From positions 1 to 56,617 of the forward strand of contig NZ_QGMZ01000030.1 of the NCBI RefSeq assembly GCF_003173335.1: DNA of 56,617 nt. Direction: 5' to 3'. The DNA is from Methanospirillum stamsii. GTDB lineage: Archaea > Halobacteriota > Methanomicrobia > Methanomicrobiales > Methanospirillaceae. Under the pieces are notes generated by a model. That model had not been told where the DNA came from. It saw only the letters and a list, made by a program, of their open reading frames with translations, and did no database searches. Positions within the stretch are counted from its first letter, which is position 1, and each line of letters begins with the position of its first letter. The position numbers and the translations under genes were made by a program. This document shows positions 1 to 31,029 of the stretch, piece after piece.

Positions 1-1
1 G

Positions 2-835
2 TGTTTGGATGCCAGATATAAGTATGCTGCTTTCGATAGCAAGTATGGCGGTATCGAACAAAAGTGGTTTTTATTCCATTCTGAAGAGAGACATAAGTCT
101 AGCATTAAACGTGATATTGAAAAACTTGAGGAGAAACTGGCAAAAAGTCAGACTGCCCTGAATAAATCATTGGTCAACGGGTTTGCTTGTGAAAATGATG
201 CACGTTTAGCTGTAGAAAGATGGATGTCAAAGCATAAGCGGTACATTCTTTCTGATATCGAAATAACAAGTGATAACAAAAAAGCGTCAGGAAAAGTAGG
301 AAGGCCGAAAAAAGGTGAGGTTCTTGAGAAGTGGTATTCTGTTTCCTGTAAATTATCTCTAAACAAGGAGGTTATCCAAAAAGAGCAAGCAGTGATGGGA
401 AGATTTGTTCTGGCTAGCAATGACACTACAATCGATCCAAACACCTGTCTTGAGTATTATAAGGAGCAAATCACCGTTGAAAGAGGATTCAGGTTCATAA
501 AAGGGAATTCATTTCACGCATCAGAGGTTTATCTGGAGAATTCAAATCGGATTGCAGCCTTATCCATGATAATGGTTCTATGTCTTCTCGTGTATTCGTT
601 CACAGAGTGGGTAATTCGTGAGACATTGAAGATTGAGAAGAAACAAATCCGGGATCAAAAAGGAAAACCAACTCATAAACCATCTGCAAAATGGTTATTC
701 TTCATGTTCAGAAGAGTGAGGCAGATTAAAGAAATTGATAATTCCAGAATACTTGTGCGAATTCTAAATTTCACTGATGAATTAAGAGATATTGTTCGAT
801 TGCTAGGGCCGCATGTGGAAAAATATTATGTGTAA
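2..835 (+). CDS. IS1634/IS4-like transposase, C-terminal part (5' end outside window)
   Basis: The frame is open from the first bases of the window, so the N-terminus is missing. About 277 residues remain. The C-terminal section has the typical DDE-transposase stretch with Glu-Arg-Gly-Phe-Arg near residue 160, followed by the hydrophobic segment and basic tail usual in IS1634-type transposases. The enzyme would cut and rejoin the element's ends. A KxGRPKKGE stretch near residue 97 is a common linker in these proteins. The visible part contains no stop or frameshift, so this copy may be intact, unlike its relative near 13.4 kb. The annotated TTG near base 5 is not a real start. Confidence 0.85.
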   Translation, partial: CLDARYKYAAFDSKYGGIEQKWFLFHSEERHKSSIKRDIEKLEEKLAKSQTALNKSLVNGFACENDARLAVERWMSKHKRYILSDIEITSDNKKASGKVGRPKKGEVLEKWYSVSCKLSLNKEVIQKEQAVMGRFVLASNDTTIDPNTCLEYYKEQITVERGFRFIKGNSFHASEVYLENSNRIAALSMIMVLCLLVYSFTEWVIRETLKIEKKQIRDQKGKPTHKPSAKWLFFMFRRVRQIKEIDNSRILVRILNFTDELRDIVRLLGPHVEKYYV

Positions 836-842
836 TTTTTTT

Positions 843-857
843 GGTGCCGAGTGTCGG
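843..857 (+). repeat. Terminal repeat of the left IS copy
   Basis: Fifteen bases identical, in inverted orientation, to 13325-13339. They mark the right end of the element that starts before the window. The GTG start of the next gene lies inside this repeat. Confidence 0.8.
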
Positions 858-1705
858 TTGTAAGAAAATTTCTTTTGATTATTGCTCTTCTCATTCTATT
901 ATCTCAATTGTGTGTACCCGTAGCATGTTCCTATACGTATTCAATTGTGCATATATCAGATCTTCAAAATCTGGCTTCACGTTATCCGGATACCTATGAG
1001 TATACTTTTTCATATCTTGACTCCATCCGGGATGAGTATAATATTAGTGCGATTATCTTCACCGGGGATCTTGTCAACAACTATAATGACAAGAAACAAT
1101 GGGATGTATATGCCCGGTCAATAGAAAAAACGGATATTCCGGTATATGTTATTGCAGGTAATCATGATACGAACTGGGGTACCAGTTATAGTAATTTCTT
1201 TCGATATACCGGAAATGATGATGATTTTTATGTAACTTCTATAAACGATTTTAATCTTATCGGTATCGATTATGCCGAAAAAACCCGTTCAGAGGATACT
1301 TTCAATAAAATCCGGGATGAAATTACAAAATCGTCATTAAAATTCAACATTATTGCAACTCATTATTACATGGAGTCTGATACTGACCGATCCAAACTGG
1401 GAGAAGATATTTTTGATAAATTAATCGATCGTCCGACGATTATTATGGCCGGCCATGTCCATTCCCAGATATTTAGAGTCATTGATAAAGATGGGAAATA
1501 TCCGGTGATTGAAGATATTGCGAATTATCAGGATGGTTATGATGATGATGATGATGATTCCGGCAGGAATGTATCTGCCGGTGTTCTCTATACCGTGACT
1601 ACGGATAATGGGATGGTTGATGAGATTGTGGCCCAGGAGATACGGATAATTCCGGCGCAGGAATTTGGTGAGATTCAAAGAATCTATAAAAACGAAACAG
1701 GATAA
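851..1705 (+). CDS. Secreted calcineurin-like metallophosphoesterase, start codon inside an IS end
   Basis: This 284-residue protein has a signal peptide (hydrophobic core at residues 7-26). Calcineurin-type metal-binding motifs follow in order: SDLQ (36-39), GDLVNN (about 73-78), GNHD (about 104-107), a TH motif near 170 and GHVH (about 201-204). The first motif is D-x-Q rather than the usual D-x-H. A run of six Asp lies near residue 231. The enzyme should hydrolyse a phosphoester outside the cell; its substrate is unknown. The GTG start lies in the terminal repeat of the upstream insertion sequence, so the first two codons are IS-derived and the native 5' end and promoter have probably been replaced. 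It ends 25 bp before the ABC transporter gene, but a role in the peptide cassette is only suggested by position. Confidence 0.8.
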   Translation: MSVVRKFLLIIALLILLSQLCVPVACSYTYSIVHISDLQNLASRYPDTYEYTFSYLDSIRDEYNISAIIFTGDLVNNYNDKKQWDVYARSIEKTDIPVYVIAGNHDTNWGTSYSNFFRYTGNDDDFYVTSINDFNLIGIDYAEKTRSEDTFNKIRDEITKSSLKFNIIATHYYMESDTDRSKLGEDIFDKLIDRPTIIMAGHVHSQIFRVIDKDGKYPVIEDIANYQDGYDDDDDDSGRNVSAGVLYTVTTDNGMVDEIVAQEIRIIPAQEFGEIQRIYKNETG

Positions 1706-1730
1706 AAAGTCATTCTTTTTAATTGTTTAA

Positions 1731-3593
1731 TTGAGTAATAGTAATATCAGGTTGAAAGTGGTTTCAATTCATCTGTCCGGTTTTATCAGAGATATTTTTG
1801 TTGAGCTGATTCAGGTTATTAAAAATCTCTCCAGAACACTCCGTCTTATCTGGAGCATTACCTCCCGGTTAACTTTGGTTAATCTGATATCATCTGTTAT
1901 TCTTGGAATTCTTCCTATCTGTAGTTTGTATCTGACAAAACTTATTGTTGATACTGCTACGACGGGCATTCTTGCACCGGATAAACATCAGGTTTTCTCT
2001 CTCATCATCCCACTAGTGATTATTGCAGCGATTATTGCAATATTTACTGCTTTTTTCAGGTCATTTAGTCATTATATTTCAATAGTACAATCTTCTGTTC
2101 TTACCGATGGGTTAAATAATATTATTCATGAAAAATCTGTACATCTTGAACTTGCATATTATGAAAATAAAGAATATCAGGATACTCTGCATCGGGCACA
2201 ATTTGAAAGTAATTTTAGGATAAACCGTGTTTTATTAAGTATAGTAAAAATCGGTCAAAGCCTTATATCAATTGGCAGTGTTCTTGTTATTCTCATTTCT
2301 TTCTCTCCGATTGCAGGGTTAATTATTTTTAGTTCTACAATACCGTTTTTTGTTATCAGGATACTGTCCTCGGCAAAGATCTATGCTCTTAAACAATTAC
2401 AGACCGAGAACGAAAGAAAGGGCAGGTATTTTCATTGGATCGTAACTAGCCAGATATTTGCAAAAGAAATCAGATTATTTGACCTTGGATCATTTTTTAT
2501 TCATAAATTTAATGATATTCAGGTTGATTTGAGACATGAACAATTGTCACTTCATAAGAAACAATTAATATGGGAATCTTTTTCGCAGATTTTTATGACG
2601 GCTGCGATTTTTGGATCATTCCTGTATATCGTTATTCAGACAGTTGAAGGGGGCATTACTCCGGGTGATATGGTAATGTATTTCATGGGCTTTCAGATGT
2701 TCATTGGATATATTCAGTCAATATTCGGAGGGATGAGTGATCTCTACCAGGATCAATTATTTCTTGATAATTTGTTTCAGTTTCTGGATCATGTTCCGGA
2801 GATTATTGTTCCTCCATCTCCAAAACCTGTTCCTCAAGAAGGATTTAATCAAATAGTATTTGACCGGGTTTCATTTAGTTATCCTGGAACAGATGAAAAT
2901 GTCTTGTCTGAAGTGTCTTTTCAAATACGAAAAGGGGAAATAATTGCTCTTGTAGGAGAAAATGGTGCCGGAAAGAGTTCTATCGTAAAATTACTTGCTC
3001 TTTTATATCATCCGGACAGGGGGAAAATACTAGTTGACGGGATAGATATCCGTTCGTTTGATCCAATTGGTTGGCGTAAACATATCGCAATTCTTTTCCA
3101 GGATTATTCAAGTTATCAACTTACTGTTGAAGAAAATATCCGGCTCGGTGATTTGAATCATCCGGGCAGGGTAGTGGAGACAGCTGCCAAGAAAGCTGAT
3201 GCGGACACTTTTATTAGCCAATTAACAAAGGGTTATCAATCAGTATTAGGGAATTTTTTTTCCGGTGGGCACGAATTGAGCACTGGGCAATGGCAACGAA
3301 TAGCTCTTGCAAGAACATTTTATCGTGATGCCGATTTGGTTATTTTAGATGAGCCATCAAGTTCTCTTGATGCCCTTGCAGAAATGAAAATTTTTGAGAT
3401 ATTTAAAGAACTGGTCATCGATAAATCTGCGATTATCATTAGCCACAGGTTTTCTACGATAATGATGGCTGACAAGATTTATGTTCTGGACAAAGGGAAG
3501 ATTGTTGAAGAAGGTAGTCACAGGGAATTGTATGAGAAAAATGGAAAATATACTGAAATGTTTCGGGCTCAGGCTGATAGTTATCAGGTCTGA
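1731..3593 (+). CDS. ABC transporter, fused membrane and ATPase domains, putative peptide exporter
   Basis: A 620-residue half transporter. Residues about 45-330 form a six-helix exporter domain. The nucleotide-binding domain follows at about 370-605, with Walker A (VGENGAGKSS, about 408-417), signature LSTGQ (about 516-520) and Walker B with D-loop (VILDEPSSSLDA). It would act as a homodimer in the membrane. It has no N-terminal C39 peptidase domain, so it cannot cleave a leader peptide itself; this matches the separate S26 peptidase domain encoded downstream. A TTG start is used here; a TTG at 1752 and a GTG at 1758 are alternatives. It lies directly ahead of the PqqD/radical SAM genes, which supports export of the modified peptide. 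The family also includes lipid and drug exporters. Confidence 0.85.
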   Translation: MSNSNIRLKVVSIHLSGFIRDIFVELIQVIKNLSRTLRLIWSITSRLTLVNLISSVILGILPICSLYLTKLIVDTATTGILAPDKHQVFSLIIPLVIIAAIIAIFTAFFRSFSHYISIVQSSVLTDGLNNIIHEKSVHLELAYYENKEYQDTLHRAQFESNFRINRVLLSIVKIGQSLISIGSVLVILISFSPIAGLIIFSSTIPFFVIRILSSAKIYALKQLQTENERKGRYFHWIVTSQIFAKEIRLFDLGSFFIHKFNDIQVDLRHEQLSLHKKQLIWESFSQIFMTAAIFGSFLYIVIQTVEGGITPGDMVMYFMGFQMFIGYIQSIFGGMSDLYQDQLFLDNLFQFLDHVPEIIVPPSPKPVPQEGFNQIVFDRVSFSYPGTDENVLSEVSFQIRKGEIIALVGENGAGKSSIVKLLALLYHPDRGKILVDGIDIRSFDPIGWRKHIAILFQDYSSYQLTVEENIRLGDLNHPGRVVETAAKKADADTFISQLTKGYQSVLGNFFSGGHELSTGQWQRIALARTFYRDADLVILDEPSSSLDALAEMKIFEIFKELVIDKSAIIISHRFSTIMMADKIYVLDKGKIVEEGSHRELYEKNGKYTEMFRAQADSYQV

Positions 3594-3648
3594 ATATTTT
3601 TTATGGTGAATACATTTATTTATTACCAAATTAGGCTAATTTATTAGT

Positions 3649-3963
3649 ATGGTAACTATTAATGAACTAACGTTATCATCCATTCCTACTAAAAATCCGT
3701 CTGTAGTCAGTCGAAAAGGTCTTGATGATCACTTAATAATTGTTAATTGCGATATCGGAAGTTCTATTGTCCTTAATAGTACAGGTGCATTTATCTGGGA
3801 AAAAATTGATGGGAAAAGGGATGTCGACCAGATTGTTATGGATGTAAAAAATTACTATGATGATGATTCAGATAGAATACGTGAAGATGTCATGAATGTT
3901 ATATCCAGTCTGAAAAAGGATGGATTTATCGGTTATGAAATTATATCCGGAATATCAGATTAA
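3649..3963 (+). CDS. PqqD-family peptide-binding protein (RiPP recognition element), first copy
   Basis: This 104-residue protein follows the classic PqqD layout: a Pro-containing N-terminal strand, an Arg before a beta hairpin, then Leu-Asn-x-Thr-Gly-Ala-x-Ile-Trp-Glu (about 44-53), a short Asp-Gly-Lys-Arg turn, an Ile-rich helix, and a C-terminal winged helix ending in a Leu-Lys-Lys-Asp-Gly-Phe-Ile motif. PqqD-like domains bind the leader of a precursor peptide and present it to the modifying enzyme. It sits 55 bp after the ABC transporter and 27 bp before a second, more divergent PqqD-like gene. This copy is the better match to the family and is the likelier leader binder. Confidence 0.82.
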   Translation: MVTINELTLSSIPTKNPSVVSRKGLDDHLIIVNCDIGSSIVLNSTGAFIWEKIDGKRDVDQIVMDVKNYYDDDSDRIREDVMNVISSLKKDGFIGYEIISGISD

Positions 3964-3990
3964 TCATTTTCTACATAAGCAGGATAAACA

Positions 3991-4329
3991 ATGAAAAAAT
4001 CAGAGATTAAAGAGAGCGTGAAACAAAAAGATAAAGTTTCCAATTCAACAGTTTATATGAATAATCCTGTTGTTAGTTGCCGAAAGGATAAATCAGATTT
4101 AGCTTTTTTATTTAATCCGGATATCGATAAGGAACTTCCCATTAATGGGACTGGAATATTGATATGGGATTTTCTCAATGAACCACACAACATAATTGAT
4201 ATTTCTCAGTACCTTCAGACAATATTTTCTGACTGCCCCTCAGATGATGCAATCTTATCTGATATTAATCAATTTATTTCTAACATATCTCATGACTTTC
4301 TTATCGAGGTAGATTGTGAAACAAACTGA
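3991..4329 (+). CDS. Divergent PqqD-like protein, second copy
   Basis: A 112-residue protein with a charged, Lys-rich N-terminal extension of about 20 residues and then a PqqD-like core. Pro-Val-Val-Ser-Cys-Arg-Lys corresponds to the first strand, and Ile-Asn-Gly-Thr-Gly-x-x-Ile-Trp-Asp to the family's Leu-Asn-x-Thr-Gly-x-x-Ile-Trp motif. The usual Asp-Gly turn is lost. Its end overlaps the radical SAM start by 14 bases, so translation is probably coupled and the two products may work as a pair. An AGGA sequence precedes the ATG. Two PqqD-like proteins beside radical SAM enzymes are known from the SynChlorMet cassette; the match here is recalled, not computed. Confidence 0.7.
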   Translation: MKKSEIKESVKQKDKVSNSTVYMNNPVVSCRKDKSDLAFLFNPDIDKELPINGTGILIWDFLNEPHNIIDISQYLQTIFSDCPSDDAILSDINQFISNISHDFLIEVDCETN

Positions 4330-5485
4330 ATTTTGTATTCCTGATATGACTATTCCTCCTGAAGGAATTCTACCTGCTCCACTTAAAGCAGATATAATTT
4401 TAACAGGTCATTGTAATCTCTCATGTCAATATTGTTATATTTCAGATGTAAATAAGAGAAAAGATCTGCCCACTGAACAATGGCTTGATTTTTTTGATGA
4501 ACTTGGAAGTCTGTGTGTGCAAAGAGTCACTCTTTCCGGTGGTGAAGTATTTCTGCGTTCTGATCTTTTTTTGCTTATTGATGGTATTATTAAAAATAAA
4601 ATGCGATATTCAATTTTATCTAATGGCACTCTAATTTCTGAAAAAATAATTCAGGAATTATCAAAGAATAAAAGAAAAATCAGACTTGATTCGATACAGA
4701 TTTCAATAGATGGGTCATGTGCTGATATTCATAACCGATCACGACCAGGCAGTTTTGATAAATCTATTGAGGGACTCATACGGCTAAAAGATGCAGGATT
4801 TCCTGTAAAAGTCAGGGTTACGGTTAATAGATATAATATTCATGATTTATCAAATGTTGCCCGTTTCCTTCTTGATGATATTGGCGTTAATTTTATCAGT
4901 ATAATGGAGACTGCAGTAATTGGTAGCGCCAGACGAAATGAACAGGATATTGCTTTATCATTTGATGAATTAGCAAATGTTATATTAATTGCAAGGGAGC
5001 TTGAAATTAAATACAAAGAAAGAATTAAATTTAATGGGAATATTAAAAAATTTTTACGTATTACAGATAATAGTAACGGAAAAGAATCAAAAGATAATAG
5101 TTCTAATTTTAAACCAGGATACCATAGTTGCTGTGGAGCTGGTTTTTCTCACCTCACTGTATTAAACGATGGAACAATGGTTCCTTGTGATCGTCTTTCA
5201 TACATGATAATTGGAGTAATCGGAAAACATCCAATTAAGGATATCTGGTTAAAATCTCCTTCATTAAATTCAATTAGGATACTTACATATTTTCCTTTAT
5301 CTTTACTACCCGACTGTGATGGATGTAAATATATGCAATATTGTGATGGTGGATGTCCGGGCATATTATCTGAAAATGAAGGCAGGATTTTTGGAGTTGA
5401 TTCATTCAGTTGTTTTAAAAATTTCAAGCAGATTGTAGATAATTCAAATCCTTTCAAAGATAATTATGGTAAAAACGTTCAATGA
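4316..5485 (+). CDS. Radical SAM/SPASM peptide-modifying enzyme
   Basis: A 389-residue enzyme. The radical SAM cluster motif CxxxCxxC is at Cys33, Cys37 and Cys40, and a Ser-Gly-Gly-Glu SAM-binding motif lies near residue 78. The C-terminal SPASM region begins with paired Cys near 272-273 and continues with a Val-Pro-Cys near 290. It then has a CDGCKYMQYCDGGC block near 334-347 and a last Cys near 363, enough ligands for one or two extra [4Fe-4S] clusters. SPASM enzymes modify ribosomal peptides, for example by making thioether or carbon crosslinks. GTG at 4316 is the start and overlaps the preceding PqqD-like gene. The cysteine-rich 62-residue peptide encoded 50 bp downstream is the likely substrate. 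The exact reaction cannot be read from sequence. Confidence 0.88.
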   Translation: MKQTEFCIPDMTIPPEGILPAPLKADIILTGHCNLSCQYCYISDVNKRKDLPTEQWLDFFDELGSLCVQRVTLSGGEVFLRSDLFLLIDGIIKNKMRYSILSNGTLISEKIIQELSKNKRKIRLDSIQISIDGSCADIHNRSRPGSFDKSIEGLIRLKDAGFPVKVRVTVNRYNIHDLSNVARFLLDDIGVNFISIMETAVIGSARRNEQDIALSFDELANVILIARELEIKYKERIKFNGNIKKFLRITDNSNGKESKDNSSNFKPGYHSCCGAGFSHLTVLNDGTMVPCDRLSYMIIGVIGKHPIKDIWLKSPSLNSIRILTYFPLSLLPDCDGCKYMQYCDGGCPGILSENEGRIFGVDSFSCFKNFKQIVDNSNPFKDNYGKNVQ

Positions 5486-5535
5486 AACGTAAGTAATTAA
5501 TATTAAAACATCAAATAAGAATTAGTGATTTCTAT

Positions 5536-5724
5536 ATGGATAACAAAAAGGGAACTAAACCAAAATATGTCCCACCTGAAATATGTAACATGGATATGAT
5601 CAATAAAGCAAGGGGGACAAATCAAGAATGTTTTGCTGGTAAGGCTGCGGAATGTGGTTCGTCTTACGATGATACTAACTGTCCTGGTTGTACTACTTGT
5701 CAACAATATGGCGTTTCAACATAA
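5536..5724 (+). CDS. Putative RiPP precursor peptide, 62 residues, six Cys, YxxPxI leader motif
   Basis: A short frame between the radical SAM gene and the kinase/peptidase gene. The N-terminus is Lys-rich and contains Tyr11-x-x-Pro14-x-Ile16, the spacing of the YxxPxL leader motif that PqqD-type proteins recognise in lasso-peptide precursors. Cys are at 17, 32, 40, 49, 52 and 55, the last three forming CPGCTTC. The C-terminal half is rich in Gly, Ser, Thr and Cys, as in RiPP cores. Size, position and motif make it the best candidate substrate of the cassette; there is no similar second peptide nearby. It has no clear ribosome binding site. A small metal-binding protein is the alternative. 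Leader and core borders are inferred; cleavage after about residue 26-28 would be plausible. Confidence 0.7.
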   Translation: MDNKKGTKPKYVPPEICNMDMINKARGTNQECFAGKAAECGSSYDDTNCPGCTTCQQYGVST

Positions 5725-5742
5725 TTAATTATTGCGCCATAT
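5706..5742 (+). promoter_or_regulatory. Inverted repeat spanning the stop codon of the precursor gene
   Basis: ATATGGCG at 5706-5713 pairs with CGCCATAT at 5735-5742, with a 21-base loop that includes the TAA stop. It could act as an RNA stabiliser or partial terminator and so raise the peptide level relative to the downstream enzyme gene. The function is inferred; the repeat is visible. Confidence 0.4.
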
Positions 5743-5787
5743 CTAATCACCTAGATATTTTTAATTCTAAACGCTCTTTTTAATTAG

Positions 5788-7347
5788 ATGGTAAAAATAG
5801 AAACATGTTTTTCTAATAATTATTCTATCCCTTTTCTATTTAACAATCAATTCATATTAATTCCTGCAGGTAAAGAGGAATCTGAATTATTAGAAATCCT
5901 TGCAGATATTATGTCACTACAGAAATCAAGTACTGGAAGAAAAATTATTTTTAGTATCCAGGAATCATACGGTTTTTTTCCTCTTATAAATTTCTCCGAA
6001 GATTCCCCTAAATTATTTGCAATATATCCTTTTGATGATATTGATAAAAAAATGAATAAAATTGCAAGTTGTGCATTTGGAATAGCTTCATACTTTATTC
6101 CATATGGGGGATTTTTAATTCATGGAGCTCTCATTGAAAAAAATGGATGTGGAATTGTTCTTTCCGGACCAAGCGGGATTGGAAAATCGACCGCAAGTAA
6201 AAGAATTCCTCCCCCATGGTGTTCTTTAAGTGACGATGCAACGCTTATATTGAAACACGATAATGGTTCATATCATGCCCATCCATGGCCAACGTGGAGT
6301 ACTTTTTTTAATAATGGAACTGGCGGAAAATGGGATACAAAAAAAAGTGTTCCTCTAAAGGGACTTTTTTTTCTTAAACAATCCGATATTGATTTAGTTG
6401 AAAAAATTCAATTACATAATAAATTTATTATGGTTTTTGAATGCATTCAGCATATGTTCAAAAGATGTGAACATAATTTTCGTGAACCCAATAACATTAG
6501 AGAAGTTTATAAAAAAGAAATAAAAAATGTTGGGGACTTTATTACATCAGTTCCGATATATCTTTTACAAAACACTCTTTCCGGAAAATTCTGGGAATCT
6601 ATCGAACTAATTATTACTGAATTAAAAAGTAATCAAGATGATATATATGAGGAGAACGCCTTTTTAAACCAGAATAAACCTTCAAAAGTGCCTGCAACAA
6701 GTTCAGAAATTTTTTCTGATGGGCATATTCCAATTCTTTTTTCAGGATATAGTATGTATCCCACTTTGCTTCCCTTGGATTTATTAGATGTTGTACCATA
6801 TAAGAATAGAAATCCATCAATTGGTGATATTATCTGTTTTAATCCACCTAATGGTGAAAAACAAGTTACTCATCGGATCATCGGTATTCGTTCTGATGGA
6901 TATTTGACCCAGGGAGATAATAACAAAGAACCTGATGATTATTTTTTGACTCGTGAATTGCTTACAGGATATGTGGTTGGTGTAATACGTAAAGATAAAT
7001 ACTATAAAATTTCTTTTGGAATAATTGGTATTTATACACGCTGGAAGGTTCTCATTCGAAAAAAAATAACTATTTTATTACAAAGAATAATTCAAAAAAG
7101 TAAAATTAATACCCGATATTTAGGTTTATATAATTTATTTTTACAAAAATTTATAAAATTAAGATATATTATGTATTTTACCCGAAATTTTATCGTAATT
7201 AGATTATTTATTGGTAAGTACGAAATCGGAGAATATAATACTGACAGGAAATTCTGGAGAATTAAATTTCCATTCAGTATATTTTTTCAAAAGAAAGATC
7301 TTCCCATTATTGAAACATCAACTTCTAATGGTATTGAATTAGAATGA
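5788..7347 (+). CDS. HPr-kinase-like P-loop protein fused to S26 (SipW/ER-type) signal peptidase
   Basis: A 519-residue fusion. The N-terminal half resembles HprK-related proteins of RiPP clusters (ScmC type): a His-Gly-Ala segment near residue 110, a P-loop GPSGIGKST at about 127-135, a Ser-Asp-Asp-Ala motif near 149, and a Tyr-His-Ala-His-Pro-Trp-Pro segment near 162. The second half has an S26 peptidase domain: Ser-Met-Tyr-Pro-Thr near 322 with the nucleophilic Ser, Thr-His-Arg near 361 (His in place of the bacterial Lys, as in archaeal and SipW-type enzymes), and Gly-Asp-Asn-Asn near 376. A basic, aromatic tail of about 120 residues follows. Related kinases phosphorylate lasso-peptide precursors. 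Here the peptidase half could remove the leader, which the ABC transporter cannot do. Both roles are inferred. An AT-rich terminator follows. Confidence 0.8.
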   Translation: MVKIETCFSNNYSIPFLFNNQFILIPAGKEESELLEILADIMSLQKSSTGRKIIFSIQESYGFFPLINFSEDSPKLFAIYPFDDIDKKMNKIASCAFGIASYFIPYGGFLIHGALIEKNGCGIVLSGPSGIGKSTASKRIPPPWCSLSDDATLILKHDNGSYHAHPWPTWSTFFNNGTGGKWDTKKSVPLKGLFFLKQSDIDLVEKIQLHNKFIMVFECIQHMFKRCEHNFREPNNIREVYKKEIKNVGDFITSVPIYLLQNTLSGKFWESIELIITELKSNQDDIYEENAFLNQNKPSKVPATSSEIFSDGHIPILFSGYSMYPTLLPLDLLDVVPYKNRNPSIGDIICFNPPNGEKQVTHRIIGIRSDGYLTQGDNNKEPDDYFLTRELLTGYVVGVIRKDKYYKISFGIIGIYTRWKVLIRKKITILLQRIIQKSKINTRYLGLYNLFLQKFIKLRYIMYFTRNFIVIRLFIGKYEIGEYNTDRKFWRIKFPFSIFFQKKDLPIIETSTSNGIELE

Positions 7348-7370
7348 ATCATGATGAGTATATTTCATGT

Positions 7371-7400
7371 TCAATAAAATCAAGAATTTTTTTTTATTGA
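7371..7400 (+). terminator. Hairpin and oligo-T terminator after the peptide cassette
   Basis: TCAATAAAA at 7371-7379 is perfectly complementary to TTTTATTGA at 7392-7400, and a run of nine T lies at 7387-7395. It comes 24 bases after the stop of the kinase/peptidase gene and probably ends the operon. Confidence 0.6.
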
Positions 7401-7754
7401 AATTTAAAAAATTAAGTATGGTTGATTCAATTACATTTTTTTTATCATAATTATATTTTTCAATACGGTTATCATGTGTGTGTATGCAGAAAACTTTACA
7501 GTAGATTGGGACTCATGTTAAAATTAAACCTGGGCCACTGTTTTGCACTGAAATAAAAATTTTAAGATTAATTATTCTGATTTTAATTTTTTAAATATTA
7601 TTTTCTTTTTTTATAATAATCGTATGATAAATTTATGGCCATATGGCATTTAGGCAATAGTAATATTCAAACTAATTATTTGCTAAATTTTTTACATTTA
7701 AGGCTCAAATCTATGATTTAAATAAGCAGTCCATAAAAATTATTCATTTCAAAG
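7401..7754. other. AT-rich non-coding gap
   Basis: A very AT-rich stretch with several poly-T tracts between the peptide cassette and the TPR/beta-helix unit. No coding frame, RNA gene or convincing repeat was seen. The promoter for the following genes is at its right edge. Confidence 0.6.
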
Positions 7755-7766
7755 TTTTTATATATG
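7755..7766 (+). promoter_or_regulatory. TATA-like box ahead of the small TPR gene
   Basis: TTTTTATATATG lies about 20 bases before the ATG at 7780, the position expected for an archaeal TATA box giving a transcript with almost no leader, or a leader to the second ATG at 7804. Confidence 0.4.
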
Positions 7767-7779
7767 AATAAAATAAACA

Positions 7780-8643
7780 ATGGAATGTTATCTTATTACT
7801 GATATGACTGAAATAATTAATACCTTTCAAATTCAGGATAAAAACATCTTAAAAACATCTGATAGTGGATGCCTTAATGGAAATTCTTTTTTTAATATCA
7901 TAAGAATAAAAGGGATTTTAATTCTTTTTTTAGCGCTTATTATACTAGTTTTCTGTGTTAATGCTGATTCCGGAATGGATTTATTGACAATTGGAGATTA
8001 TTCCGGGGCACTGGCAGCATTTACCCAAGAGGTTGATGATTATGAGGGATCAGACCAAGCACCAATTTTCAATAATATTGGTACTTGTTATGTTGCTTTG
8101 GGTGATTTGGAAAATGCATCAAAATATTATGAAAAAGCAGTAATTTCAAATCCTGAATATTTCCGGAGTTGGATTAATCTTGGGGCCGTCCAGGAAAAAC
8201 TTGGGAGAATTGATGATGCCCTTACCAGTTATGAAAAGGTAACAAGTAAAAACCGTGAATTTTTTGCTGATGCTTTAGTTAGAAAAGGGAATATTCTTTC
8301 TTCTCTTGGAAAACTAGATGAGGCGAGGACTACTTTTTTGGAAGGAGAAAACTATGCAACTGTTCAAACTGCTCCCGATGTCTATACAGGAATTGGAGCG
8401 GTGGCTTTTATGCAAAACGACACTATTGAAGCGGAAAATGCATTTTTAAAGGCAATTGAATTGGATACAGGTGGTGCTATTATGGCTTATACTAATTTAG
8501 GTGTCCTCTATGTTACTCAAGGTGAGTATGATAAAGCTAAAGCTGCTTTTCAAATGGCTGTCAGTCATGATCCCGATGGGATATCAAATGCACAGACATA
8601 TCTTAACAATCTCGAGAGAATGAGTGGAACAAATCAATCATAG
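7780..8643 (+). CDS. Membrane-anchored or secreted small TPR protein
   Basis: A 287-residue protein. An unusual N-terminal stretch of about 45 polar residues precedes a hydrophobic segment (about 46-63), after which tetratricopeptide repeats of about 34 residues fill the rest, with typical Asn-Ile-Gly-x-Cys-Tyr, Tyr-x-x-Ala and Asn-Leu-Gly positions. TPR arrays form protein-binding scaffolds, here probably outside the membrane. ATG at 7804 is an alternative start. The gene ends 11 bp before the giant beta-helix gene and is probably co-transcribed with it, so the two may interact at the surface. No enzyme motif is seen. Confidence 0.72.
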   Translation: MECYLITDMTEIINTFQIQDKNILKTSDSGCLNGNSFFNIIRIKGILILFLALIILVFCVNADSGMDLLTIGDYSGALAAFTQEVDDYEGSDQAPIFNNIGTCYVALGDLENASKYYEKAVISNPEYFRSWINLGAVQEKLGRIDDALTSYEKVTSKNREFFADALVRKGNILSSLGKLDEARTTFLEGENYATVQTAPDVYTGIGAVAFMQNDTIEAENAFLKAIELDTGGAIMAYTNLGVLYVTQGEYDKAKAAFQMAVSHDPDGISNAQTYLNNLERMSGTNQS

Positions 8644-8653
8644 TGGTGAAATC

Positions 8654-11600
8654 ATGAAATTATTCAAATCTTTGTTAATTATATTCCTGCTTCTTTTTAC
8701 AGTAGGAATTGTACTAGCATGTGAAACTACAGATCCAAATTCAGGGCACGGCGGCTGTTCAGGCGGTCATGATGGCGGTTGTACCAATCCGGATGGCTGT
8801 GGTGGTAGTTCACACGAAAGCCCATGTACTGGTGATTCTTGTCCTGCTGTCCCCAATGAGGAAATATTAGCACCTGAAGATGATGGTTCCAGTATAGACG
8901 AAAGCCCATGTACTGGTGATTCTTGTCCTGCTATCCCCAATGAGGAAATATTAGCACCTGAAGATGATGGTTCCAGTATAGATGAAAGCCCATGTACTGG
9001 TGATTCTTGTCCTGCTGTCCCTGATGAGGAAGCATTAGCACCTGAAGATGATGATTCCAGTATTGACGAATCCACATGCACTGGTGATTTGTGTCCTGCT
9101 GTCCCTGATGAGGAAGCATTAGCACCTGAAGATGATGATTCCAGTATTGACGAATCCACATGCACTGGTGATTTGTGTCCTGCTGTCCCTGATGAGGAAG
9201 CATTAGCACCTGAAGATGATGATTCCGGTATAGACGAAACTCCATGTATTGGTGATTCTTGTCCTGCTGTCCCTGATGAGGAAGATTTAGTTCCTGAAGA
9301 TGATGGATCTAATTTATCGGTTACTGACGGTTCTTGTACCGGTGATTCTTGTCCTGTTGTTCCTGATGAGGCAGCATTAGTTCCTGAAGACGATGGAGCC
9401 CATGAAGTTGTTAGTAACGATATATCAGGCTCTATTGAATTAGTAGTGGATACAGAAACTGAAGATTATACTTATACATTAGGTACCTGGACAATTACCG
9501 GAGCATATAAAGAATATTATATAAATCAGAATTATAACTCTGAAGATTATGAATCGGAAGAAGATTTTACTTTTAGTATTGTAATTTCAGCTTCAGGAGT
9601 TACGCTAGATGGAAATGGATTCTCGATCAGTGGTTCTGGAAATGGAATAGGCATTGATATCACGTCTTCAGCCAACGATGTCACAGTGGAGAATTTCGCG
9701 GGAATAAGCAATTATGATATTGGTGTAAGTACTTCGGGTTCTTCTTCTACAATAACTGATAATACAGTGAATGATAATTATTATGGAATAAAATCCACTG
9801 GATCAGCTGCTACGATAGATCATAATACAATATCAGATAATTATGGTGGAGTCTTATCTAAAGGCTCTTCTGCAACTATTACTGACAATCTGGTCCAGAA
9901 TAATAATGATGGTATCAGGTCTACTGGTTCTTCTGTACTTATTGATAGTAATACCGTCATTGACAATCAATATGGTGTCAGTTCAATTGGTGAAAGTGCA
10001 ACTATTAATGAAAACCTCGTGAAAAATAATGGTATTATTGGTGTAATTTCTAATGGTAATAATGCTACAATCAATGGAAATTATGTTATTACTAACTTTC
10101 AAATGGGTATTAAATCCTGCGGAATAAATGCATCAATCTCTCAAAACCTGGTATATGATAATGGCATTGGAATAAATTCCTTTGGTGATGATGTCACAAT
10201 TGATGAGAATTGTGTGATTAATAACACTGATATCGGTATCAGCTCATCAGCCATCAATGCTGATATCACTGAAAATTTCGTTAAGGGAAGTGTTATTGGA
10301 ATTGGTTCTTCTGGAACGAATGCTGAAATTACTAGTAATATTGTGAAAGAAAACATTCTTGGTATTGATTCTCTTGGCAAGGATGTTAATATTTCAAATA
10401 ACTATGTTAGTGATAATGAACAGCTTGGAATCCGTTCTCGTGGTTCATCAGCAACCATAAACCAGAACACTGTCCAAAATGGATATGCAGGAATCTATTC
10501 TTACGGCTCTTCTGCAACTATTACTGACAATCTGGTCCAGAATAATAATGATGGTATCAGGTCTACTAATTCTTCTGTAGTTATTGATAGTAATACCGTC
10601 AGTGAGAATCAGTATGGTATCAGTTCAATTGGTGAAAGTGCAACAATTAATGAAAATCTCATGAAAAATAATGGTATTATTGGTGTAATTTCTAATGGTA
10701 ATAATGCTACAATCAATGGAAATTATGTTTTTAATAACGTTGAAATGGGTATTAAATCCTGTGGAATAAATGCATCAATCTCTCAAAACCTGGTATTTGA
10801 TAATGGCATTGGAATAAATTCCTTTGGTGATGATGTCACAATTGATGAGAATTGTGTGATTAATAACACTGATATCGGTATCAGTTCATCAGCCATCAAT
10901 GCTGATATCACTGAAAATGTTGTTAAGGGAAATGTTATTGGAATTGGTTCTTCTGGAACGAATGCTGAAATTACTAATAATATTGTGAAAGAAAATATTC
11001 TTGGTATTGATTCTCTTGGCAAGGATGTTGAAATTTCGAATAACTATGTTAGTGATAATGAACAGCTTGGAATCCGTTCTCGTGGTTCATCAGCAACCAT
11101 AAACCAGAACACTGTCCAGAATGGATATGCAGGAATCTATTCTTATGGCTCTTCTGCAACTATTACTGACAATCTGGTCCAGAATAATAATGATGGTATC
11201 AGGTCTACCGGACCTTCTGTGGCCATTGCAAGTAATACCGTCATCAACAATAAGTATGGTATCAGTTCAATTGGTGAAAGTGCAACAATTAATGAAAACC
11301 TCGTGAAAAATAATGGTATTATTGGTGTAATTTCTAATGGTAATAATGCTACAATCAATGGAAATTATGTTCTAAATAACGTTGAAATGGGTATTAAATC
11401 CTGTGGAATAAATGCATCAATCTCTCAAAACCTGGTATATGATAATGGAATTGGAATAAATTCCTTTGGTGATGATGTCACAATTGATGAGAATTGTGTG
11501 ATTAATAACACTGATATCGGTATCAGTTCATCAGCCATCAATGCTGATATCATTGAAAATGTTGTAAAGGGAAATGTAATTGGAATTGGTTCTTCTGGAA

Positions 11601-13195
11601 CGAATGCTGAAATTAATAGTAATATTGTGAAAGAAAACATTCTTGGTATTGATTCTCTTGGCAAGGATGTTGAAATTTCGAATAACTATGTTAGTGATAA
11701 TGAACAGCTTGGAATCCGTTCTCGTGGTTCATCAGCAACCATAAACCAGAACACTGTCCAGAATGGATATGCAGGAATCTATTCTTATGGCTCTTCTGCA
11801 ACTATTACTGACAATCTGGTCCAGAATAATAATGATGGTATCAGGTCTACTGGTTCTTCTGTAGTTATTGATAGTAATACCGTCATCAACAATAAGTATG
11901 GTATCAGTTCAATTGGTGAAAGTGCAACAATTAATGAAAACCTCGTGAAAAATAATGGTAAGATTGGTATAATTTCTAATGGAAATAATGCTACAATCAA
12001 TGGAAATTATGTTATCAATAACTTTGAAATGGGCATTAAATCCTGTGGAATAAATGCATCAATCTCTCAAAACCTGGTATATGATAATGGGATTGGAATA
12101 AATTCCTTTGGTGATGATGTCACAATCGATGAAAACTGTGTGATTAATAACAAAGATATCGGAATCAGTTCGTCAGCTCGCAATGCTGAAATCACTGATA
12201 ATGTAGTAAAGGGAAGTGATGTTGGAATTGGTTCTTCGGGCATGTATGCTGATATAAGCGGTAATGTTGTAACACATAATAATCTTGGCATCGATTCCCT
12301 TGGTGAATATGCTGAAATCAGTAATAATTGCGTTGACAGTAATTCAGAGATCGGTATCAGGTCTGTTGGTTCTTCTGCTGATATTATTAAAAATAAGGTT
12401 TCCAAGAATTATGAGGGTATACAGTCAACCGGTTCATCTGCAATTATTACCGAAAACAATGTACATCATAACAAATATGGTATCAATTCAACCGGTTCAT
12501 CTGCAACAATAAATGAAAACCATGTATTCCATAATTCAAAAGTTGGAATTACATCAACCGGTAATGATGCTGATATCACAGAAAACTTAGTCTATCATAA
12601 TGATATTGGCATTAAATCATCTGGGTTAAATGCTTTACTTGACGATAATAAGGTATATCATAATGATATGGGTATTTTATCCTATGGTTCAGATGCCATT
12701 ATTACAAATAATGATGTTGTAGGAAATTACGAGGCAGGAATCATCTCTACTGGTGCATCATCATCTATAATAAATAATAATGTGAAAGATAGTCTGGTTG
12801 GTATTGATTCTTCAGGCAAAAATACTGAAATCAGTGGTAATACTGTTAATAACAATGGTGTCGGAATAATTTCCTCCGGTACTGGTTCACATATCAGTGA
12901 TAACGAGTTAAAATGTAATATTTTAGGTATTGTCAATACAGGGAAAAACGCTATTATTGATGAAAATTCGATTAAGAATGGACTTATTGGTATTTTTAAT
13001 TCCGGATGCTATGTTACCATAGATGATAACTCAATTAAAAATGCTGAAATTGGTATCGTAAATACGGGTTGTCGTGTAACTATTACTGATAATAACGTGA
13101 AAAATGGATTGATTGGAATTTTAAATACCGGTTCTAAAGTAACCGCTAAAAATAATGATTTAAAGGGTAATTTAATCAAGAAAATTGGAATTTGA
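8654..13195 (+). CDS. Giant secreted parallel beta-helix (NosD/PbH1-type) repeat protein
   Basis: A 1513-residue protein. ATG at 8654 is preferred over 8624 because a GGTG sequence lies just upstream and it gives a clean signal peptide (residues 2-19, ending in Leu-Ala-Cys). A His/Gly/Cys-rich stretch is followed by seven acidic repeats of about 28 residues, each with a CxGDxCP motif (about 55-250). A non-repetitive link (about 255-330) leads to about 50 rungs of 21-22 residues with Asn and Gly-Ile at fixed positions, the pattern of right-handed parallel beta helices of the NosD/PbH1 class. Ten rungs make a 214-residue unit present four times in tandem. A surface or sheath adhesin-like role is likely; no catalytic residues are recognisable. 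Confidence 0.85.
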   Translation: MKLFKSLLIIFLLLFTVGIVLACETTDPNSGHGGCSGGHDGGCTNPDGCGGSSHESPCTGDSCPAVPNEEILAPEDDGSSIDESPCTGDSCPAIPNEEILAPEDDGSSIDESPCTGDSCPAVPDEEALAPEDDDSSIDESTCTGDLCPAVPDEEALAPEDDDSSIDESTCTGDLCPAVPDEEALAPEDDDSGIDETPCIGDSCPAVPDEEDLVPEDDGSNLSVTDGSCTGDSCPVVPDEAALVPEDDGAHEVVSNDISGSIELVVDTETEDYTYTLGTWTITGAYKEYYINQNYNSEDYESEEDFTFSIVISASGVTLDGNGFSISGSGNGIGIDITSSANDVTVENFAGISNYDIGVSTSGSSSTITDNTVNDNYYGIKSTGSAATIDHNTISDNYGGVLSKGSSATITDNLVQNNNDGIRSTGSSVLIDSNTVIDNQYGVSSIGESATINENLVKNNGIIGVISNGNNATINGNYVITNFQMGIKSCGINASISQNLVYDNGIGINSFGDDVTIDENCVINNTDIGISSSAINADITENFVKGSVIGIGSSGTNAEITSNIVKENILGIDSLGKDVNISNNYVSDNEQLGIRSRGSSATINQNTVQNGYAGIYSYGSSATITDNLVQNNNDGIRSTNSSVVIDSNTVSENQYGISSIGESATINENLMKNNGIIGVISNGNNATINGNYVFNNVEMGIKSCGINASISQNLVFDNGIGINSFGDDVTIDENCVINNTDIGISSSAINADITENVVKGNVIGIGSSGTNAEITNNIVKENILGIDSLGKDVEISNNYVSDNEQLGIRSRGSSATINQNTVQNGYAGIYSYGSSATITDNLVQNNNDGIRSTGPSVAIASNTVINNKYGISSIGESATINENLVKNNGIIGVISNGNNATINGNYVLNNVEMGIKSCGINASISQNLVYDNGIGINSFGDDVTIDENCVINNTDIGISSSAINADIIENVVKGNVIGIGSSGTNAEINSNIVKENILGIDSLGKDVEISNNYVSDNEQLGIRSRGSSATINQNTVQNGYAGIYSYGSSATITDNLVQNNNDGIRSTGSSVVIDSNTVINNKYGISSIGESATINENLVKNNGKIGIISNGNNATINGNYVINNFEMGIKSCGINASISQNLVYDNGIGINSFGDDVTIDENCVINNKDIGISSSARNAEITDNVVKGSDVGIGSSGMYADISGNVVTHNNLGIDSLGEYAEISNNCVDSNSEIGIRSVGSSADIIKNKVSKNYEGIQSTGSSAIITENNVHHNKYGINSTGSSATINENHVFHNSKVGITSTGNDADITENLVYHNDIGIKSSGLNALLDDNKVYHNDMGILSYGSDAIITNNDVVGNYEAGIISTGASSSIINNNVKDSLVGIDSSGKNTEISGNTVNNNGVGIISSGTGSHISDNELKCNILGIVNTGKNAIIDENSIKNGLIGIFNSGCYVTIDDNSIKNAEIGIVNTGCRVTITDNNVKNGLIGILNTGSKVTAKNNDLKGNLIKKIGI
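8816..9409 (+). repeat. Seven tandem 84-bp acidic/cysteine repeats
   Basis: Copies start at 8816, 8900, 8984, 9068, 9152, 9236 (longer, 93 bp) and 9329. Each encodes about 28 residues with CxGDxCP, then Pro-x-Glu-x-x-Leu-x-Pro-Glu-Asp-Asp. Copies 4 and 5 are almost identical at DNA level, which shows recent duplication. Confidence 0.9.
9863..12430 (+). repeat. Four tandem 642-bp super-repeats inside the beta-helix gene
   Basis: The same GGC/GGT-TCTTCTGCAACT phase recurs at 9863, 10505, 11147 and 11789, and a diverged one at 12431, a spacing of exactly 642 bases (214 codons, ten rungs). Copies 1-3 are nearly identical; the second half of copy 4 has diverged. Confidence 0.92.
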
Positions 13196-13714: not shown

Positions 13715-14621
13715 CTAACGGTCAGTTTTGATTTCAATAAAGTTGTAGACGAATTGAAAAATGTTTAATGATGCTATATAATCATGGACGGTTTTCGAAA
13801 ATGAAACCGTTTTCCTTCCAAACCTACTCAAACGCTGACGAATTTTATTATTATAGCCCTCAACAACAGATGTTGAGATTGAAGGAAAATGAGGATTACC
13901 AAATATTTTCTCTCGAAAAACACAAACAAGCGTATTTTTTTTCTTGACTTTTACCCGCTGGCCATAATTCATACATGGTTCCCAATATAATTCTGGCAAA
14001 CAAATCGAGTATTGAATATTTCCATCAGTATATATCGAAATTTTCTCATCGGGTGTTGGGAGATTCATTCTCTCAAAAAAGAGATCCATCATATCTGCAC
14101 AGTTACTTCCAATCCTCTTTCATGAGTGAAATGCGATAAATAATCCAGATTCTCTTTTGAAACTTGTATCTGTCCAATAATCTCCATATTCTTCAGGTTC
14201 ATTATTTTGGAGATTTTTGTTTTTTTTGTATAAATTCCCTAATTTCATCCATTTCACAATCACCAGCAGGGACATCACAGATGTTGTGATCATTGAGGAT
14301 TTCTGCATGGTCTCCGATAAGGTGATAATACCTGGAAATCGTATCCCGGTGGTGATCAATAATTCTGGATACCCCACGAATTGATGTTTTTTCCACTGCA
14401 TGCTTTGCAATTAAAAGAACTTCAGAACGAGGTAAACGTGAATGATAAAGGGGAGTATTACGTGTTTCAATGAAATACTGACCACAATGATGGCAATGAT
14501 ATTGTTGATTTCCTGTTGTATTATGACCATTTTTTGTAATGTCCTTTCCCTCTTCTATTTGAAAGAATGAACAATCCGGGTTTTGACAGGTTATGTTTAT
14601 TGGACCGCGTTTTCCTACCAT
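13715..14621 (-). pseudogene. IS1-like transposase, broken
   Basis: Starts at 14621 with a zinc-finger N-terminus (CQNPDC and CHHC pairs) and a helix-turn-helix, as in IS1-type InsA regions. The frame shifts near 14200-14235, at an A-rich run on the minus strand, into a second frame. That frame carries the continuation but meets an in-frame TGA near 14120. It then resumes at about 14092 with the catalytic C-terminal part (YTDGNIQY, and Val-Glu-Gly-Tyr-Asn-Asn-Lys-Ile-Arg) to 13715. IS1 elements use a programmed frameshift at an A-run, so the shift may be natural, but the TGA is a true lesion. Confidence 0.72.
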
Positions 14622-14719
14622 TGTTAATATTCATCATCTAATTCATATAAAATTTTAATACATGGATATTGACACAATTTTGCCTATAAGTATTACCAGC
14701 TTTTTGTCAGGACATTACC

Positions 14720-16070: not shown

Positions 16071-16175
16071 ACATATTATTTTCTAGTGGCAAAGTTGGGC
16101 TTTAAAATGGAGTCCGAAGTTAATGCTGGATAATCATTATCCATTTTTTAGGTAATTCTTCGAATCGGTCGTAAT

Positions 16176-17319: not shown

Positions 17320-17383
17320 TGGTTCATTAATAATTTATAGTTTGTTGCATTACTTTCTATACTTTTAAATTTAAACATAGTTT

Positions 17384-29802: not shown

Positions 29803-31029
29803 TTAAAAATATTTTATAAAACTTATCCATCTTCTAATGTATGCACAAGGGATATCCAAAATACTATCTGATTTACGATATTTATATAAAAGTCCCTTTG
29901 GCGGAAAAATATAATAATATATGTGTGATATTTTATCGTTTCTATTTTTTAAGGCATGGATAATATGGATAAAAGACATGAGATATATACTATGATTTTT
30001 CGCAAATGTCATTATTTTTTGTTCTTTTTGGGAGGGAACCGGCCAATTTGAGAAGTTATTATAATTTTCTGGTAGTGAAACACCTGACCAAAGACTGGCT
30101 ATTATCAATGCCAGTTCTAAGGAAATTCGAACATTATCCATTGCTGATTTTTTTGTGATAATTTTCCAATCTTCTATAGTCAATTTGGGAAAAAGATATG
30201 CAATATCCATGATCCAATCAAAGGTCATGCTATCGTGCTGGAAAATATGGTGAAAAGCAAGATATTCAAGATGATTAATTGGATTAAATGTAAAAAAATT
30301 AAAATTATTATATTGAATTAATTGTTTGGATATGAAGGCTTTGTCTAACCAATCCTGATCAAATAATGAAAAATTTCTATCAATTGACCAGTGAATATCA
30401 ATATTGGCCATGTTTTTTGGAGTGAAAAAAACCTCTTCTTGGAAAATATCTGGTGAAATATCGAAGGTATGTTCAGGACATCTATATCCAAGATTCTCGA
30501 GAATATTCTCTAAATTTTTTATATTTTCTGGTTGAACAAAAAGATCAATATCACAAGAAATTCGTGTTGCAGTATCAGGATAAATTGATCTTGCAAGAGC
30601 CACTCCTTTTACTATAATTACTTCAATTTTTTCTTTCTCAAAGATTGAAGATAGGTTTAGTAATTGGTGGTCAATTAAAACTGATTTTATTGCAGCCTGA
30701 TGGAATTCCTTAATCAATCGTGAATATATGAAATCCGGAGGTCTGAATTTTTCCTCCCATGTAGATATATGCAAGGCAAGGAGTGATAGTATCCGGTGTG
30801 GAATTAGTGTGGCTAACCATTCTTTCCATTCATCCTCCGACCAGTTTTCCGGAATTTGAGGAGTATTTCTGATGGCTGCGATAAGATATTGTAATTGTTT
30901 ATCCTTAAGAGCTAAGAGTTCGTTTGTTTTTTTCCCTGTTAATGGAACTTTCGTATGTACTTTTTTTATTGAATCAATGAGTTCGTCTGGATCATTGATT
31001 GAAATTCCGGAGTACGATGAGGAGATCAC
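29803..31029 (-). CDS. PF14907-type nucleotidyltransferase-like protein
   Basis: A 408-residue protein. The central region (about 125-300) has the pattern of the uncharacterised nucleotidyltransferase family NTP_transf_5: Val-Lys-Gly-Val-Ala-Leu, then Arg-Ile-Ser-Cys-Asp-Ile-Asp-Leu-Phe-Val with the Asp-x-Asp metal site, then a Val/Ile-Asp-x-His-Trp motif near residue 225. This family is common in lasso-peptide and glycan clusters, where its substrate is often unknown. It stands alone, divergent from the glycan locus on its right, and could serve that locus or the peptide cassette; neither is shown. Confidence 0.75.
   Translation of the reverse strand: MISSSYSGISINDPDELIDSIKKVHTKVPLTGKKTNELLALKDKQLQYLIAAIRNTPQIPENWSEDEWKEWLATLIPHRILSLLALHISTWEEKFRPPDFIYSRLIKEFHQAAIKSVLIDHQLLNLSSIFEKEKIEVIIVKGVALARSIYPDTATRISCDIDLFVQPENIKNLENILENLGYRCPEHTFDISPDIFQEEVFFTPKNMANIDIHWSIDRNFSLFDQDWLDKAFISKQLIQYNNFNFFTFNPINHLEYLAFHHIFQHDSMTFDWIMDIAYLFPKLTIEDWKIITKKSAMDNVRISLELALIIASLWSGVSLPENYNNFSNWPVPSQKEQKIMTFAKNHSIYLMSFIHIIHALKNRNDKISHIYYYIFPPKGLLYKYRKSDSILDIPCAYIRRWISFIKYF

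Follow-up and report, generated by a model that had tools for sequence, protein, structure and literature searches.

Six genes near the start of contig NZ_QGMZ01000030.1 of the archaeon Methanospirillum stamsii (assembly GCF_003173335.1) resemble a SynChlorMet (SCM) cassette in which ScmE is the only radical S-adenosylmethionine (SAM) enzyme and its usual companion, ScmF, is missing. The whole stretch of DNA that was analysed, 56,617 nucleotides, is referred to here as the window. The six genes probably constitute a cassette for a ribosomally synthesized and post-translationally modified peptide (RiPP), which would make, cross-link, phosphorylate, trim and export a small Cys-rich peptide. The best explanation of its composition, in which we have fairly good confidence when it is taken as a whole, is that ScmF was lost here and that ScmE and the peptide diverged together from a two-enzyme ancestor.

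A preliminary description of this DNA had proposed a SynChlorMet-like RiPP cassette with a single radical SAM gene, made up of six genes at 1731-7347. All six genes lie at these positions on the + strand, and the assignment is supported by family profiles and by related loci. Every part of the cassette except the peptide has a Pfam or NCBIfam family match. The six genes, and a seventh located further downstream, are as follows.

1731..3593, + strand: MsbA-like ATP-binding cassette (ABC) exporter with membrane and ATPase domains (Walker A GENGAGKS; PF00005, E 3.1e-31; PF00664, 28 bits)
3649..3963, + strand: PqqD1, a PqqD-like leader-binding protein or RiPP recognition element (RRE) (PF05402, E 6.8e-16; TIGR04248 (ScmD), 57 bits, best NCBIfam model)
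3991..4329, + strand: PqqD2, a second PqqD-like RRE (TIGR04248, E 3.3e-9, 37 bits; PF05402 just below cut-off)
4316..5485, + strand: radical SAM/SPASM peptide maturase of the ScmE type (PF04055, E 4.5e-26; PF13186, E 7.6e-9; TIGR04250, 279 bits)
5536..5724, + strand: candidate precursor peptide of 62 residues with six Cys (no family match; top hit of a profile of relatives' precursors)
5788..7347, + strand: ScmC kinase fused to an S26 signal-peptidase-like domain (TIGR04249, 154 bits, cut-off 125; TIGR02228, 49.6 bits, cut-off 51.85)
29803..31029, - strand: PF14907 nucleotidyltransferase, the 'N' gene, with K141 G142, D160 and D162 (E 2e-38)

PqqD2 and the radical SAM gene overlap by 14 bases; the gaps between the other neighbouring cassette genes are 55 and then 27 bases before this overlap, and 50 and then 63 bases after it.

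The SCM models are NCBIfam TIGR04248-TIGR04252, which cover ScmA, ScmC, ScmD, ScmE and ScmF. In the window, ScmC scores over its cut-off, and the ScmE and ScmD models are the best for their proteins though at sub-threshold scores. TIGR04250 (cut-off 400) is by far the best model for the radical SAM enzyme, which is also its best hit in the genome, and the closest two-enzyme relatives fall below the same cut-off at 358-379 bits. TIGR04248 (cut-off 100) is the best model for both PqqD proteins, and one two-enzyme locus reaches only 71 bits with it. The ScmA model, TIGR04252, had no match in the window, and none of the 232 genomes of the class passes its cut-off. Because even full two-enzyme loci miss this cut-off, the model is narrow, and it was rejected as a precursor finder, being useless at the level of the class. 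ScmF (TIGR04251) is absent from the window genome, where the model scored no higher than 110 bits, its best hit being a pair of other radical SAM genes on contig C56; ScmF proteins of relatives score 333-566 bits and fragments of them 212-271. By strict NCBIfam criteria the window does not hold a full SCM cassette, as ScmF is missing and ScmE, ScmD and ScmA are short of their cut-offs. It differs from the SCM cassette further in having two PqqD genes, a fusion of ScmC with the S26 peptidase and a detached N gene, but it shares with it an exporter, an S26 peptidase and the same leader plan in the precursor. Judged by these sequences, the cassette works like SCM and descends from the same stock.

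ScmC-like matches were obtained in 25 of the 232 genomes of the class, and bacterial loci with the cassette were found in Chloroflexi (three, two of them Anaerolineae/Anaerolineales), Nitrospirae, Lentisphaeria, Chlorobiaceae and Deltaproteobacteria. A short contig from Acidobacteria carries PqqD, ScmE and ScmF. A search of the genome contigs with a single ScmE protein found no relatives; a search with an alignment did. Within the class, ScmE and ScmF occur together in 18 genomes, ScmE occurs alone only in the window genome, and ScmF occurs alone in two (G129 and G102). G129 is 96% complete and has a ScmF cassette that is otherwise intact and lacks ScmE, while the ScmF gene of G102 is partial and may be an artefact.

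The candidate precursor has a leader with a YxxP motif (YVPPEI) and a core that opens with CFAGKAAEC and is irregular after that. The preliminary description had spoken of a six-Cys peptide; six Cys residues are present, but the first lies in the leader and only five lie in the likely core. In SCM loci of relatives there are short frames whose leader fits [Y/W]xxPx(I/L/V/A), in many cases with DL after it. Their core is rich in Gly and Cys; there, Gly stands at +3 after 77% of the Cys residues, and the next Cys usually lies 9-11 residues on. A peptide combining YxxP with at least two CxxG units is found in 27 of 33 SCM loci versus 2 of 63 control radical SAM loci, counts that are descriptive rather than a blind test as the pattern was fixed after the SCM loci had been inspected. 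By sequence, precursors with YxxP leaders and CxxG repeats typify SCM loci both in archaea and in several phyla of bacteria. Homologues of the window peptide do stand beside PqqD and radical SAM genes, since matching precursors are present in most of the fetched loci that have this gene set. When a profile was built from the precursors of 23 relatives, with the window peptide excluded, that peptide came out on top of the contig's 1575 frames, with an E of 0.015 against 0.57 for the runner-up. The distance from its motif Tyr to the first core Cys, with the leader Cys set aside, is 21, and 17-22 is usual in the family. In many SCM precursors, Tyr+14 to +16 form a small-x-small step, frequently GxG; the window peptide has A-R-G there. 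This step, together with the placement of the motif Tyr at -16 in the linear polyphosphorylated peptides (LPPs) described below, suggests that the leader is cut at KARG/TNQEC.

The catalytic motifs of the cassette enzymes are retained. All Fe-S cysteines of the window ScmE are kept (C33xxxC37xxC40, and SPASM Cys 273, 291, 334, 337, 343, 347 and 366), and its best match in the PDB is SkfB (6efn, E 9.9e-30). Residues ~1-286 of the fusion protein adopt an HprK/PEPCK fold, the predicted model of which matches 1xkv with a Z of 13.7 over 248 aligned residues (residues 1-282); the model was compared by Foldseek and VIA-align, and the S26 half was barely covered. The kinase motif of the fusion (H112, G127, G130, G132, K133, S134, D149, D150) corresponds to H148-G163-G166-G168-K169-S170-D186-D187 of BsfK, a lasso peptide precursor kinase that phosphorylates Ser3 with the aid of a PqqD-like partner (PMC10368454). 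The S26 domain keeps S322, H362 and D383/384, as expected of signal peptidases of the archaeal or endoplasmic reticulum type, with D383 or D384 as the putative catalytic Asp. Where SCM loci lack the fusion, most have separate ScmC and S26 genes close together. PqqD1 matches the lasso RRE TbiB1 (5v1u) in phmmer with an E of 0.0065, and the nearest matches of a PqqD family profile are 5v1u (E 3e-11) and the PqqD-family chain 9x8z (E 2.5e-10). According to an alignment, the PqqD duplication is common to the window and the fetched stretches L044, L045, L046, L047 and L183. A family scan found no peptidase domain in the exporter.

Although its Fe-S cysteines are conserved, the window ScmE is unusually divergent. 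It clusters with the ScmE proteins of G001, G179, G181, G200 and G206 but sits on a branch longer than any other (1.15). Of 71 near-invariant columns it departs at 10, where every other sequence departs at three or fewer. The departures include residues 196-197 (TN to IM) and 241-244 (AGPL to GNIK). With three relatives ScmE shares 46-47% identity, while those three share 77-88% with one another; in the corresponding comparison of the exporter, the window protein is 44-50% identical to its orthologues in fused-clade SCM loci, and these are 51-78% identical among themselves. Several comparisons in this analysis rest on small alignments and on thresholds that we chose, and draft genomes may hide genes. 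The divergence fits a ScmE that became specialised together with a changed peptide after ScmF was lost. The main rival is that the cassette is decaying, the loss of ScmF having left it with no finished product and ScmE and the peptide drifting under relaxed constraint. The absence of ScmF, the long branch with its changed columns, an excess divergence that is far smaller in the exporter, a peptide core largely devoid of the CxxG repeat and the transposase genes nearby all agree with decay. Yet all reading frames are intact, the Fe-S cysteines, kinase motif and protease triad are all kept, and the order and spacing of the operon are undisturbed. Real decay looks different in the control locus L163 (G203:C120), where both ScmE and ScmF contain stop codons, and we regard decay of the window cassette as unlikely.

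Alternatively, ScmF could be hidden in an assembly gap, in which case the cassette would be an ordinary two-enzyme SCM. The genome is a 3.74 Mb draft in 89 contigs, and the cassette begins 1.7 kb from the contig end. The assembly is, however, rated 99.89% complete, and two-enzyme loci have ScmF beside or near ScmE, whereas the sequence downstream of the window ScmE is complete and contains no ScmF. A real change is also a better fit to the unusual divergence of ScmE, and a hidden ScmF is very improbable. It might also be supposed that ScmE acts on some other substrate, such as a small redox-cofactor precursor of the kind handled by PqqE, and that the 62-residue frame is not its target. PqqE and MoaA-like enzymes do belong to the same superfamily, but peptides with the same leader occur in most SCM loci, and a kinase, a leader peptidase and an exporter suit an exported peptide, so that little credence can be given to this proposal.

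The closest precedents for the remaining parts of the cassette are RiPP systems that phosphorylate their products. LPPs, reported in 2026 from Bacillota, are encoded by LppA/K/B/S/D/N clusters (PMC13381572). These clusters specify an RRE, an HprK-like kinase, a leader peptidase resembling archaeal-type signal peptidases (SpI), an NTP-transferase, an MsbA-like pump and a precursor with a YxxP leader, and leader cleavage requires the RRE and the peptidase Ser, His and Asp, the motif Tyr being at -16 (PMC13381572). The window likewise has an RRE, an HprK-like kinase, an SpI-type peptidase, an MsbA-like pump and a YxxP leader. The LPP leader has the consensus YxxPxVLxHQxIxFETxxS, of which the window peptide shares only YxxP, with Ile in place of Val. 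The window precursor differs further in being Cys-rich, and the word 'radical' does not occur in the main text of the LPP report (PMC13381572). An SCM cassette would thus be the LPP gene set with radical SAM enzymes added. The phosphorylated lasso peptides paeninodin, Bsf and pseudomycoidin also share a PqqD-like B1, a kinase with the H-G-G-G-K-S-D-D motif, the nucleotidyltransferase N, the ABC pump D and a YxxPxL leader (PMC10368454, PMC9266682). The lasso systems use a macrolactam cyclase and the B2 peptidase where the window cassette, by sequence, would use radical SAM chemistry; neither the macrolactam synthetase (C) nor the B2 protease had a match among the cassette proteins, the remaining window genes being only partly scanned. 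By the definitions of these classes the window cassette is neither an LPP nor a lasso system. The maturases of sactipeptides and ranthipeptides (SkfB, CteB and TrnC/TrnD of thuricin CD) share the radical SAM/SPASM fold and act on Cys-containing precursors, with TrnC/TrnD a precedent for two cooperating enzymes (PMC12093266), but in the window the RREs are proteins of their own, and a kinase and an S26 peptidase are encoded as well. In its fold and Cys motifs, the window ScmE fits an enzyme that makes Cys-to-carbon thioethers of the sactipeptide or ranthipeptide kind. TvgB, a radical SAM enzyme that modifies repeats (PMC9062424), was considered as a parallel and set aside as it belongs to a different system. 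A lanthipeptide-like route, in which the kinase drives Ser/Thr dehydration and Cys addition while the radical enzyme does something else, could draw on the kinase and on the many Ser, Thr and Cys residues in relatives' cores but is extremely unlikely, given that a family scan found no lyase or cyclase domain among the cassette proteins and that the HprK-like kinases of lasso and LPP systems leave the phosphate in place (PMC10368454, PMC13381572).

The preliminary description had regarded the cassette as self-contained, a view that now needs amendment, as a likely partner gene, the PF14907 nucleotidyltransferase, lies 22 kb away. In LPP systems the NTP-transferase is within the cluster. PF14907 is the only extra family that recurs beside SCM cassettes, being present in 20 of the 42 stretches fetched, among which L047 and L165 represent a single place; the best matches of the window copy are in L058 (315 bits), L047 (263) and L046 (226). 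Among 108 genomes of the family, 12 have both PF14907 and ScmC, 6 have only ScmC and 4 have only PF14907 (p 1e-8, which is only a guide since the genomes are related), and within the genus PF14907 is present in exactly the three genomes with ScmC. Based on this recurrence and co-occurrence, the gene is probably a detached member of the cassette system. For the lasso peptide pseudomycoidin, PsmK carries out the phosphorylation and PsmN is needed for addition of a hexose to the phosphorylated Ser (PMC9266682). As read from translations, the PF14907 gene lies beside an apparent polysaccharide or glycan biosynthesis locus at 31281-55241; LPP clusters of Bacilli are often found within capsule loci (PMC13381572), and the window resembles them in this respect.

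From gene content and motifs we infer the following pathway. The PqqD-like RREs would bind the 62-residue precursor at its YxxP leader, as their homology and the leader motif suggest, and present the Cys-rich core to the ScmE-type enzyme. This enzyme may install carbon-based cross-links, of which thioethers at the core cysteines are the likeliest kind. By the precedents of the lasso and LPP systems, the ScmC half would be a peptide kinase that phosphorylates a core Ser/Thr residue, and the resulting phosphate may be decorated by the nucleotidyltransferase, whose gene lies 22 kb from the cassette. Leader removal would fall to the fused S26 domain, a predicted Ser-His-Asp protease that would cut ~16-17 residues beyond the motif Tyr, close to KARG/TNQEC, and the ABC pump would export the finished product.

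Several observations weigh against a functional single-enzyme RiPP cassette. The scores of ScmE and ScmD fall under the curated cut-offs, and the S26 half of the fold model is of low confidence. The core Cys spacing of the window peptide (8, 9, 3, 3) is irregular, with one canonical CxxG unit (CFAG), and its match to the relatives' profile is modest. Codon usage of the peptide gene is not distinctive, as 52 of 194 frames of that size score as high or higher, and was discarded as uninformative support. A genome search with the precursor alignment came back empty; it missed even the window peptide, and its silence on further precursors therefore carries no meaning. The literature searched yielded no product for any SCM cassette.

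Genome-wide absence of ScmF, divergence of ScmE, a detached nucleotidyltransferase and the match to the LPP/lasso tailoring set go beyond what the preliminary description contained. Taken jointly, the observations allow a tentative reading, which we rate as somewhat less likely than not, in which SCM is a cross-domain RiPP class where one leader-binding module directs both radical SAM cross-linking and phospho-decoration by a kinase and nucleotidyltransferase to a single repetitive, Cys-rich peptide. The window would then hold a natural version with one radical enzyme, whose ScmE and substrate evolved together once ScmF was lost, and G129 may be a mirror-image version with ScmF only. The two radical SAM enzymes of thuricin CD form a complex and neither is effective alone on the precursors (PMC12093266), which makes a natural single-enzyme version informative: such cassettes are natural knock-outs and could reveal the role of each radical SAM enzyme. 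In the literature found, SCM cassettes are not described as a RiPP class, the name SynChlorMet is not mentioned, and ScmC, ScmE and ScmF appear only in unrelated uses of those letters. According to a 2025 study, the archaeal RiPPs validated until then numbered only two, both of them lanthipeptides from haloarchaea (PMC12144867). With the precursor family and the link to LPP and lasso systems, what was an orphan NCBI annotation becomes a pathway that can be tested and that has a substrate, a leader motif and predicted steps.

Other SCM loci show further variation. At ~798-802 kb of G208:C1 (L164 13993-17830; also L049), three units, each with a 10-Cys precursor, PqqD and a ~36-residue stub of the 5' end of ScmE, precede a fourth PqqD that is followed by full ScmE, ScmF and ScmC. 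The stub sequences are partly identical, which suggests that the array arose by unequal duplication that multiplied precursor variants. L048 (G201) has a similar but less complete array. Long precursors with many similar Cys-Gly units occur in L074 (7324-7704), L180 (5934-6233) and L044 (6574-6930, - strand). A second, distant type of cassette is present in L055, L056, L057 and L058 (G220, G129, G127 and G109). It has PqqD, S26 and two or three radical SAM genes, one of which in L056-L058 is fused to a weak ScmC-like kinase match, and sometimes an ABC pump and PF14907; its peptides have the form W..P.L.IL.R...C.

At the downstream end of the window cassette, the hairpin terminator that had been proposed to close the operon does not stand out. 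T-runs are present, but the stability of the fold (-6.2 kcal/mol, z -0.89) is within the range of shuffled sequence, 40 of 200 shuffles being as good, and the candidate was dropped. An Rfam scan of positions 1-9000 gave no match. Upstream, a gene for a metallophosphoesterase with a signal-like start (851-1705) ends 25 bases before the exporter gene; it was rejected as a cassette member, as it has no homologue in the 42 fetched stretches. Just downstream of the cassette is a gene for a 1523-residue NosD/beta-helix repeat protein (8624-13195) with a signal-like start, whose N-terminal part has repeated ESPCTGDSCPAVPNEE units with paired Cys. The contig also carries transposase genes or their remnants (DDE_Tnp_1, weak IS1-like, weak TnsD-like and ISL3), both close to the cassette and further off, at 5-835, 13715-17912 and 45241-46452.

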